DNA from: Ischnura elegans
Lineage: Eukaryota > Arthropoda > Insecta > Odonata > Coenagrionidae
Assembly: GCF_921293095.1 (NCBI RefSeq)
Contig: NC_060246.1
Coordinates: 11,054,001 to 11,118,000, forward strand
Length of the DNA: 64,000 nt
Direction of reading: 5' to 3'
A program made the translations under genes and the position numbers. Of the stretch, positions 9,797 through 24,710 are shown in pieces; position 1 is the stretch's first letter, and each line of letters starts with the position of its first letter. The notes under the pieces were generated by a model. That model was given only the letters and a program-made list of their open reading frames with translations. It did not search any database and was not told the DNA's origin.

Positions 9797-12700
9797 GTAA
9801 GAACTTGCCATTAAGTGACTCGGTAATCATAAAGAAAGCAGTAATAACGACTTTTTTTTGCATTTAATTAGGGACCCCGAAAATGAGTAGTTAGCAGAAC
9901 GTATCTCTCTTTAACCTGAAAACACAGCGAATGTATTAACATTACCGTCCGAAAGCACCTCACTAGTTTTCTGAGAGCCTACCTCTATGCTAGTATTTAC
10001 GTTATGGTTATTTGAGATTATTTTTGATGATTGAAGTGCAGGTAATTCTAGCATTGACGCTCTTGAATTCTTTTTATTCTGGGCGATCAGATATCGAATT
10101 GTGGATTTAAGATCTCGTCCTTTAAGTAAAATTCCTTCTGCATGTACCTGCTTTTTGGGATTGAGCCTAGTATTGGATTCTCCAACGAAAATATTGCTGC
10201 CACTGCTACTAAGCTCAATCCTTCAATTTTCACAGCTCTCATTTGTCATTTTTTTATTTCCAAGAGTATAGTTGAAGATAGCAATTGAGGTTCAGGGAAG
10301 AATTATAAATAAGCATTACATATCCTTTTAACTTCAATTTAATTTAACTGCTTAGTTCAAATCATGATTTTTGTAAAAAAAATCGTGTCATTTGTATCCT
10401 GCAACAGGTGGTGATTGTTGGAAATGGTGCTGTTGGAAAGTCTAGCATGATCCAGCGCTTCTGTAAGGGGACATTCACCAAAGATTACAAGAAGACCATT
10501 GGTGTGGACTTCCTCGAGCGACAAATCGAGTAAGTGTGAAACAGAGCTTGAGTTCAGGCTTTATCTTCTTTGCAATGTAAACATTGAACTAACATGTTTA
10601 AGTATACCGGGACTAGCCACGGTGATAACTTTTACGGAGTAACCCGCAATGCACAAATAGTGCGAAAAATCCACGGAGGAAAAATCATTCGCCATGACCG
10701 GGATTCGAACCCGGATCTACAAGGGAGAATGACGCCTCGGTAGCTTAACTGGCTTAAGCACTCGGCCGGAAATCGAGGGATCCGGGTTCGAATCCCGGTC
10801 ATGGCGAATGATTTTTCCTCTGTGGATTTTTCGCACTATTGAACTAACACTTTGTATTTCAATATAGAAGATATTGCTTGTGAGAAATCGCATTGATTTT
10901 TTTACATAGTAGAGACGACATACCTGCAATAACTTCGAATCGGCCTTATGCACTCCAATTTAACTATCAAGTTTTGCCAATGGAAAAAATAACTTAATTC
11001 AAGGATCGACCCTCGGAACTTTGGCCATTACTTAGGCTGTTACACTATCAAGGATGTTTCCCTGTCTGGGACCTGCAATTTGGTGGAAATTCTAGGTTGT
11101 AGGTTTTGTAAGGCACTGATTCCTGTAATGTCCTCGAACTGACCATCAATGATCATGACAATTTCAATGTAACGGTGAATTGTAGCCACGAGCAAAAAGT
11201 CTGCTAGACAAGGCATCGATCCACTCAGTGTTAATCTGCTCCAAATTTTGGGACTGGAGGAGGAAAAAACTCACAGGAAATTCTTATTTAGAGGCACAAA
11301 ATGTACTTGACCTATTTACTAATTTTTTTTCTGTGTAGTGTTATCATCCTACTAAATGTTTTGTCAGTAATGTATCATTATGCAACTTATTCCTACTTTT
11401 GTTTCCTGAAATGTGAATGTGTATTTATAATTTTTATCTGCGCCAAAAAAAGAACAATGGGTCATTCATAGACATATACCTCTCCGTTGACAATTTAAAA
11501 ATTTTTGATGGCCGTTGCTACATGCATACAAGCTTACACGTAGAGAAAACATCACTGAAATGTGATTAAAGAATGGAGAAAATAATTAGTGGAATATTTT
11601 AAACTCGCTTTTCATGTATGTTTATCAAAAGTGAGGGAGGTGAGCCTACTTCTAATTAGGAAGAGAGTAATAATGGAGGGCTTGTGGCTGTGTATGAGGA
11701 CATAGAATTTGCGTCAAACCTGACTCCATGGACACATTTCTTATAAACCTACACCATTATCTTCTTTGTCGAGGATATCCTGACAACCTTCTGCATAAGA
11801 AAATACACATCCTATAATTTTTCAAAAAATTTTCCCGGAAGTTGCCCTAGGGGGTGCACCACTCCTCCTCCCCCCCCCCCCCCCCCCAAAGGTTATACGT
11901 ATGTAATTACGCTACGATATATACATATAATTGTTTGTGCTCGCAACTATTTTATTTTTCCCTCTTATCAATACCCAGGATTTCGCCTGGAGGAGACCTC
12001 ATTCGACTGATGCTGTGGGACACGGCTGGGCAGGAGGAGTTTGATGCTCTCACGAAGGCGTACTACCGTGGCGCCCACGCTTGCCTCCTTGCCTTCTCAG
12101 CCACGGATAGGCTGTCTTTTCTGGCTGTGCCCATGTGGAAGAGGAAGGTAAGCAAAGCTGTTAGTAGTTGCTGTAGTTACTGGGCATTAATTAAGTGATA
12201 TTATATGGTGTGTTCCTGCATATATTACTGTTATATCTTTGCTTGTGCTTATTGTACTCATTGGCAAGTGATGCGGTTTATATGAACCTATTCATTTTTT
12301 TTTTCAATGTCTTGTTTTTTTTATTTTGGATTTAATCTGAGTGTTTTCTTTTATCTAGTATTCATTTTTTTCATCAATATCTTTCGTGCAAATTATTTAC
12401 CAACATTACACTGTTAGGTTTATTTTGAAAGTATTCAAAGCACAGGGCAGTGTCGAGTATGCATTTTGTGAAGGATTCCATAGTAAACCTAAAATTTTAA
12501 TCTGGCCCAAGATAGGATACAAAAGTGATCACCCTCTACAGGGGAATATTCCTTTCTGTATTTGTATTGGATATTTCCTCTTAAAATATCCAACTCTTGT
12601 ATCGATCCATTCTGGTTCTGAGTCGCATTGAGTCTTTGAAATCCAAAGCATGAGCGTTATGCTGTCTTACCTTTCTGTGTAAAATTTTCATTATGTTTCA

Positions 12701-22599: not shown

Positions 22600-22928
22600 T
22601 TACGGTCCCGTTTGTTTTTGCGTGTAAACCGTGCGATTGTGGACCGAGCTATGTAGGGCAAACAGGACGTGATTTCACCACGAGAATGAAAGAACACAAG
22701 AAGTGCAAAGAAAACGGTGATGAGACATCCATGGTAGCAAAACACCTGTTAAATTTGGGCCATGATTGCGAATTTGATCCTGTGATTCTCCACGTAGCCG
22801 ACAAAGGAAGAAAACTTGATGCCCTGGAACAAATAGAAATTAACATAAGGAAAAAGACTAATAAGCCCCTCCTCAACGAACTTCTGTACTGCACCAGCTC
22901 ACCCCTCCTATCCATTGACTTCCATTAG
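22600..22928 (+). CDS. Penelope-like element C-terminus, GIY-YIG endonuclease
   Basis: Open frame of about 109 codons, undisrupted. Reads CKPCDCGPSYVGQTGRDFTT, then RMKEHKK, HLLNLGHDCEFDPV and LDALEQIEINIRKKTNKP, and stops TAG. SYVGQTGR..TRMKEHK is the GIY-YIG core as found at the C-terminus of Penelope-like retroelement proteins. The reverse transcriptase is absent, so the copy is 5'-truncated, as is usual for these elements. The intact frame contrasts with decayed neighbours and suggests a younger insertion. It is followed by a tail with a hammerhead-like motif at 23265-23300. Confidence 0.85.
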
Positions 22929-23264
22929 CCATTCCCCGTCCCCTCCCATCCCTCTTTCCCCCAGGACGCGGTGGCCCGCCCCCCCTCATCCTCCTCGACG
23001 GCCGACACCATGAGGCATCCAGGGGTAGGTGACCGGACCGAGCGACTGGAGCGTTGGAACCCAGCGGAGAGGGTACCAGGGGCCTTCCCACCATCCCCTT
23101 GGAGGAAGACATTAAGGTCAATTAGTGTATTTATCATACTCCTCTCTAACCCCATCCTCAGTTTTCCCAAGCCCCGTGACTGTACACCCTCCCTCTTTCC
23201 CCGCCTTCCCGCCCACCACCCCCTCCTACCTTCCCCATTTAAGCGTAGCGCACTTGATATTTTT

Positions 23265-23300
23265 GTACCTGATGATGCTGAAAAGCGAAACCGGTAGTAT
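23265..23300 (+). ncRNA. Hammerhead-ribozyme-like motif in the Penelope tail
   Basis: CTGATGA (23269-23275), one extra T, stem II GCT-GAAA-AGC (23277-23286), then GAAA (23287-23290). Stem III would be ACC/GGT (23290-23295) with no loop, which could pair only in a dimer. GTAC before the core (23265-23268) pairs with GTAT at 23297-23300, giving stem I, with A23296 at the cleavage position. Hammerheads are known in Penelope-like elements. The extra T may weaken activity. Confidence 0.5.
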
Positions 23301-23816
23301 TAATAAATGTAAAATTGTGGAAATTGCTCCTGCTTTTTCATTTTCATTATGTCATGTTTCCACTCCATCTCGCCTGAAACCTCAGACTATATACGTTATT
23401 GCCTTTAAATTGCATATAACTGTCATGATAATTGTATTCATTTATAAAATATTTTTTTGCAAAATTTCCATAGGAACGCACTACACTAACCCACACTACT
23501 GCTCCCTGTGCATGAAATCCCATATATTTACATCTACATATATCCCGCAAGCCGCCAAAAACGCGTGTGGCAGGGGGTGTTAGGACACCAGCCATCATTA
23601 AAATATAATGAATTTACAAAATATTTCTTTAACGAATAAAGTTTTTTTGATTATGAAAAGTGTTACAATTAGTTTAAAACCCATTACTTAGTACCCTGTT
23701 TTTCTAAAATTTTCTCCCCTGGTTTTCGAACCTCCCCCCCTGAACAAAATTCCTGGCTATGCCTCTGGGTTCAATCATTTAACTTGTGCATCTATCTATG
23801 TATTTATGTATACCTA

Positions 23817-24710
23817 TCTAATATATAAAGTTCTCATGTCACATTTTTTTGTAGCTAAACTCCACCGAAATGGCTGGACCAATTCCTATGAAATTTTGTG
23901 AGTATATTCAGTAGGTCTGAGAATAGGATGTAATCTATTTTTCATTAATCCGAAGGGCCCATGTGGCTCTGAATCATTTCCATAAGTTATGCACGTTAAG
24001 TTCATTATTAATGCCTGCAGACGTTTTTCTTTTTCCATATTTATATTAGTGATAATGATTACATTTAGTTAAGACATACACCAATGGAGAGAAAAAGAAA
24101 TGCACATTCTAATACTTGAAATTGATTTTTGTTTTCCACGTGATTTACGGTGAAATTTGAAAAACAATACATAAAAATGCTAAAATTTCAGCATTTGGGC
24201 TTACTGTCCCCTTGACGACCATCAGAATTGTTTATGTAGTTTGACATCTCTTCAATCGATGCAGTTTGCAATACCAGCGAAGCTTTAAATTATCCACTTG
24301 AGTTTTTGAATTTAGTGCATTTGCCAGGCATGCATCATTTACAACAAGGTTGGATCTCCAGTTACATATGCTTTGTAAATTGAAACCACCACGGCTGTGC
24401 AAAGGCACACGATTAGACATTAAAAAATTGATTAAAAACATTGTTGAACATTTTGAATGGAAAGTTCTAAGGAGAACTTGTATTGCTGCCACAAATCCCT
24501 ATTATTCCGACAATGTGCCGATTGAATTCAAACAGGTTCATTTTCCAATTAGACTGGCATTCGCAACGACCAAGTCTCAAGGCCAAACGATGTCTTGCAA
24601 TGGCGGCTTAGATTTGGGTACACAGTGTTTTTCACACGAACACTACTCTCACGTGGGGAAAGTTTGTTTGTGTTGGCTAATGATAGACTCATAAAAATAT
24701 CGTGCACTTT
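23817..24710 (+). pseudogene. Helitron relic (5' end and Pif1-like helicase C-terminus)
   Basis: Starts at TCTAATATATAAAGTTCTCA after an A, like insect Helitron 5' ends (TC after A), followed by the usual AACTCCACCGAAATGGCTGG. From 24190 the + strand reads EALNYPLEFLNLVHLPGMHH and, after a frameshift, LKPPRLCKGTRLDIKKLI and FKQVHFPIRLAFATTKSQGQ, the last motifs of the Helitron helicase. The Rep domain and a 3' CTRR hairpin were not found. Confidence 0.8.

Follow-up and report, generated by a model that had tools for sequence, protein, structure and literature searches.

The closest described relatives of the motif reported here are the minimal hammerheads of Penelope-like elements (PLEs), which act as dimers and are already in print (Cervera and de la Pena 2014; Lunse, Weinberg and Breaker 2017; cited here through passages of PMC6155905, PMC7229834 and PMC7761336). 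As described in those passages, they follow the order of type I, have a stem III that is slight or missing, and sit in PLE repeats arranged in tandem, all as in the present case, with dimer cleavage proposed or (going by the title of the 2017 paper) shown. By its sequence, the motif discussed below is a member of this published class; the extra U and the palindrome rule described below may already be contained in the 2014 and 2017 papers, and no novelty is claimed for either. The activity of PLE hammerheads and their role in vivo are called still a mystery in the relevant passage of a 2020 review (PMC7761336).

Three further systems offer points of comparison. PAc, a Poseidon PLE of Anolis carolinensis (PMC11167929), shares with the elements described here a reverse transcriptase (RT) and a GIY-YIG endonuclease, a hammerhead close to the ORF start and a tail lying between two RT start sites; its hammerhead was dispensable for insertion in vitro, and cut only with protein present. 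The ORF start of PAc was placed at stem II, whereas the likely ORF start lies downstream of the hammerhead here, and start sites showed no difference between strands for PAc in vitro, in contrast to the one of each found in 36/36 inserts in this study. The Penelope elements of Adineta vaga, in the sections of PMC3846280 that deal with them, share inverted pLTRs and the TATATATA box, with duplications of 8-10 bp, and carry a tail optionally on one inverted repeat, as here, which is explained there by self-priming on the antisense template; a hammerhead, present here, is not mentioned for them in those sections. Finally, natural hammerheads with a U3-A8 core pair (Perreault et al. 2011, PMC3088659) show the same replacement of C3-G8 by U3-A8 as many of ours, with "several" examples in the part of that paper concerned against about two thousand places with the U3 pattern in this genome. 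The idea that a U3-A8 core is new to nature was therefore rejected. In the literature searched, the scope of which lay outside the defining papers of 2014 and 2017, neither a ribozyme that lies at the start of the transcript and is copied through nor a one-short-one-long tail rule stated as a rule was found.

The PLE copy carried by the window (the whole 64,000-nucleotide stretch of DNA analysed) extends from 22632 to about 23393 and represents the 3' part of the element, its kinship to other genomic copies beginning only at query position 33, i.e. window 22632. It is a dead, 5'-truncated copy, the 3' end of which bears the leader of the following unit, starting with the hammerhead. Its parts are as follows (RNA letters, with the letters of the window in brackets where they differ).

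22632 to 22928, + strand: 3' remnant of the PLE frame, a GIY-YIG endonuclease without its GIY half, ending at TAG (copy alignment, Pfam)
22929 to 23264, + strand: pLTR-like region between the ORF and the hammerhead
23265 to 23268, + strand: self-complementary 5' strand of stem I (GTAC), where transcription is predicted to start and where head-to-head inserts are preferentially joined
23269 to 23275, + strand: hammerhead core CUGAUGA (CTGATGA), C3 to A9
23276, + strand: extra U (T) between the core and stem II, seen in 23/23 kept hammerheads (see below)
23277 to 23286, + strand: stem-loop II, GCU-GAAA-AGC (GCT-GAAA-AGC)
23287 to 23295, + strand: GAAA (23287-23290) and the loopless palindromic stem III, ACCGGU (ACCGGT, 23290-23295)
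23296 to 23300, + strand: A 23296 (H17), after which cleavage is predicted, followed by the 3' strand of stem I, GUAU (GTAT, 23297-23300) (sequence, covariation)
23301 to 23393, + strand: rest of the 5' leader, and tail, with the likely ORF start at ATG 23349

The letters and positions of the motif, as given in an earlier note on this DNA, proved exact on re-reading of the window, as did the 340 nt that it counted between the end of the endonuclease frame (stop at 22926-22928) and the core. That note had also called the GIY-YIG frame intact, which it is not: the GIY half is missing, and Pfam PF01541 aligns with the frame over profile positions 14 to 73 of 78 (E 0.0021), scoring 18.8 bits and thus falling below the cut-off of 22.6. 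The GVY stretch present in loci L039 and L007 is absent from the window endonuclease. Penelope-like identity, on the other hand, was correctly recognized, as is clear from the other copies, the RT of L039 and the tandem arrays. L039, a better copy, has an open stretch of 684 aa with RVT_1 (E 2.1e-10) and, read by eye in the same frame, the endonuclease motifs, so that an RT and a C-terminal GIY-YIG are found in one frame; Pfam reported no GIY-YIG in L039 at E up to 1. A structure-sequence search gave nothing beyond weak RT matches. A protein search yielded 2066 candidate relatives, of which 150 were scored, many with open frames of more than 800 aa and some arrayed in tandem at a period of 2772 or 2777 bp. 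Tandem or inverted units, a tail and target duplications, which mark PLEs, are all found. At L040, pieces of a second, divergent PLE family lie on the minus strand beside a window-family copy, in the opposite orientation.

The window motif has the layout of a type I hammerhead core, departing from it by one U between A9 and stem II and by a stem III without a loop. Searching the genome (1.72 Gb, 110 contigs) with the 31-nt core motif, at no more than 2 mismatches, gave 956 matches, as opposed to 0 for the reversed control, and a scan for the general layout found 1 site in the window and one each in 2 of 20 shuffled windows (simple base shuffles). A chance origin of the motif was rejected on these two comparisons. 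The stretches upstream of 80 PLE frames (20 + 60) were then scanned with a layout in which 0, 1 or 2 extra bases were tolerated and either C or U at position 3 could be combined with either G or A at position 8; it demanded GAAA and at least one stem III pair and was thus not blind to the motif. Five of the resulting 28 matches (L111, L119, L120, L132 and L133, with scores of 3-7) were set aside as chance, leaving kept matches, with a score of 9 or more, in 23/80 upstream regions. Read backwards, the same stretches gave 3 matches, one scoring 10, and their complement gave 1 (score 5); the reverse complement gave 12, scoring up to 16, which we read as inverted copies. By eye, most of the 57 regions with no kept match seem to lack a PLE leader, and four (L085, L102, L106 and L151) resemble damaged leaders.

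All 23 kept hammerheads have exactly one extra base, always T, and their core pair is C3-G8 in 8 and U3-A8 in 15, mixed pairs being absent. Stem III is loopless and perfectly palindromic in 20/23 (the exceptions being L084, L146 and L152), in forms that include CCGG, CGCG, CTAG, CATG, CCTAGG, CTCGAG, CCCGGG and CCATGG. The extra T and the loopless stem III, which the earlier note regarded as unusual, are therefore the usual condition upstream of PLE frames. Genome-wide, the C3 form with the extra T matches at 2096 places and the U3 form with the extra T at 2070, compared with 88 for the C3 form lacking the T (control 2 in each of the three cases), and many of these 88 differ from the same families by one base. 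In the 100 places listed per form with the extra T, mixed 3-8 pairs were seen by eye in few (C3-A8 in 3, U3-G8 in 2), as was a non-palindromic stem III (0 for the C3 form, 2 for the U3 form). An ATG within the hammerhead (23275) opens a frame, MLKSETG..., which overlaps the likely PLE start (23275-23349) out of frame. A role of the extra U as part of the ORF start codon was considered and rejected, given that ATG 23275 and the likely start at 23349 lie in different frames and that, in L088, the same ATG runs into a stop within a dozen codons (by eye).

Two of the checks proposed in the earlier note gave different answers. Conservation and covariation of the core in other copies came out in its favour, beginning with the 23 kept hammerheads. 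In ten sequences of nine families (chosen with a 4-nt stem III, and with L080 and L100 belonging to one family, so that the counts are tilted towards the model), standard pairs fill 97.5% of 120 pair cells and 9/12 pairs change on both sides, with covariation in stems I, II and III, while pairing falls to 18-53% when the partners are slid in these ten sequences. The other check, a run of hammerhead covariance models, returned no Rfam match in the window or in 15 loci of this kind, although E values of up to 10 were admitted; the Rfam models describe a closed stem III and would be expected to miss a loopless form. At the sequence level, both the type I hammerhead-like reading and the place of predicted cleavage hold good.

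The need for a dimer, as argued in the same note, also stands, because a stem III that lacks a loop has no way of closing in a single molecule. Two RNAs, or two tandem units of the same RNA, would pair via the palindromic stem III to give a double hammerhead, which would cut after NUH; the tandem arrays would allow such dimers within one transcript. Among the predicted minimum-energy dimers of five sequences, the double hammerhead appears exactly in L093 and nearly so in L080, L088 forms stems II and III only, with stem I unpaired, and the window family and L090 fold otherwise.

Where the element RNA begins can be estimated from a putative promoter. When the elements were grouped by the analyst into 14 families, with one row for each, a full TATAWAW-type box (7/7 positions) was found at -40 to -31 from the core in 10/14 families; no other 10-nt bin from -150 to -1 had one in more than 1 family, and 4/14 families have no full TATA box. 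The window has CATTTAA (23236-23242) at the position of the TATA-like TATTTAA of L039, -33 from the core. With the usual TATA geometry, such spacing places the start at about stem I. A TATA box 31-40 nt before the core thus implies that the ribozyme probably forms the 5' end of the element RNA, and in working copies the box would set the start of transcription at stem I, so that the RNA would begin with the hammerhead.

The many short inserts in this genome are a record of what RNA was copied, and from where. Those with two arms have them head to head, and the starts of 42 arms were mapped in 23 inserts (taken from the first 30 of 425 tail matches, all on contig C1, with the arms of one insert merged and a 25-nt piece beside L050 left out). 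Just over half of the arms (22/42) begin at -8 to +3 of the core and 20/42 elsewhere; 33/42 run through the predicted cleavage site, 7/42 begin downstream of it and 2/42 at it (+27/+28, both of L045). GTAC is the centre of head-to-head palindromes at 31 loci, 11 of them exact and 20 having 1-3 mismatches; the cleavage site is the centre at 3 places, which share the same letters and have 3 mismatches each. The latter junction is the same at L045 (C1:405434), C4:236506 and C9:114127448, and these three places are probably copies of one event. As arms mostly run through the cleavage site and few begin there, the arm ends suggest a template that had mostly not been cut there, in line with the finding that Anolis hammerhead mutants still insert in vitro (PMC11167929).

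Two other readings of the motif have to be set against this. Were the RNA cut by the hammerhead before serving, perhaps in circular form, as the template, inserts should begin at the cleavage site, as both arms of L045 do and as the three loci with that junction might be taken to indicate; circular retrozyme RNAs are indeed known in animals (PMC7229834, in the passage concerned). We nevertheless regard a cut template as very unlikely, in view of the predominance of arms that pass through the site (33 against 2) and of palindromes centred on GTAC (31 against 3 places), of the lack of a clear target duplication at L045, and of the Anolis mutants just mentioned. The same copying through the motif could be turned against the ribozyme itself: the motif might now be no ribozyme at all, kept as a promoter, a protein-binding site or a dimerising hairpin with an inherited core, and both the failure of the Rfam models and a stem II of only 3 pairs in the window family fit such a loss. 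This seems improbable, as the catalytic residues, the NUH and the GAAA stay while the stems change with compensation and the 3-8 core pair is exchanged as a pair; PLE variants, moreover, cleave as dimers by the title of Lunse et al. 2017.

The other ends of the arms obey a simple rule: one short and one long tail are found in 36/36 head-to-head inserts examined. These comprise 30/30 inserts of the window's own family (19 from the arm-start sample and 11 other hammerhead-anchored loci; the second arm of L029, L038 and L070 is a fragment) and 6/6, read by eye, from five other families (picked for close hammerheads). The short arm ends at about +75 to +83, near 23348 in window terms, at the likely ORF start (ATG 23349, placed by similarity to N-termini, among them MSNFHQLKPE and MFHNISPNTV), and the long arm at about +119 to +126, near 23391-23395. 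Target duplications of 9-15 bp flank 18/19 tested inserts, compared with 6/342 for mismatched flanks, the exception being L045, which has no clear duplication (longest shared stretch 6). These shared outer stretches imply that the inserts are single events, and both ends of one break seem, from the tails, to have been primed at different sites. A TGTGGAA-like stretch recurs between the hammerhead and the ORF start in many families and may be where the reverse transcriptase binds or starts.

Head-to-head inserts could also have arisen from one strand that primed itself at the palindrome on an antisense template, rather than from two primed break ends, as proposed in part of PMC3846280. The junctions are often palindromic, and the arms of one insert are more alike than those of different inserts, differing by a mean of 2.8% vs 4.3% (21 inserts; 0/5000 permutations as low). 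Such likeness, however, suits RNAs from one source locus as well as a single RNA, and a copy folded back on itself should have equal tails, whereas the tails are unequal in 36/36 inserts; the 5' ends of the two arms of an insert, moreover, often differ, and filler occurs. One insert, L057 (C1:63104569-63104722), has a difference of 9.4% between its arms and distinct subfamily markers on each (H17 C and GTATC in one, H17 A and GTATT in the other), which suggests that they were copied from two RNA molecules. Self-priming is thus an unlikely source of these inserts.

Taken together, the most convincing explanation, and one that we consider probable, is that of a dimeric hammerhead at the start of the RNA, two-site priming and head-to-head joining. 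At insertion, the element protein would make a staggered break (the target duplications being its observed trace), each end of which would prime reverse transcription at one of the two sites near the ORF start; the cDNAs would commonly run through the uncut hammerhead to the 5' end of the RNA and be fused head to head, in many cases at GTAC, which is self-complementary. An uncut template that starts at the hammerhead and different start sites at the two break ends are both testable statements. More speculatively, and with rather low confidence, the stem III palindrome at the 5' end of the RNA could be first of all a dimer-linkage site, by which two RNAs are held in one integration complex that copies one RNA from each end of the staggered break, at different start sites, to give a head-to-head double insert, self-cleavage being a later or side step. 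If true, the hammerhead would act somewhat like a retroviral dimer initiation site.

Elsewhere in the window, Pfam gave nothing useful for three other frames and no match for the open stretch at 24302-24691, which is reminiscent of the helicase end of a Helitron. At 10734-10806, on the + strand, lies a match to the tRNA model of Rfam (RF00005, 47 bits).
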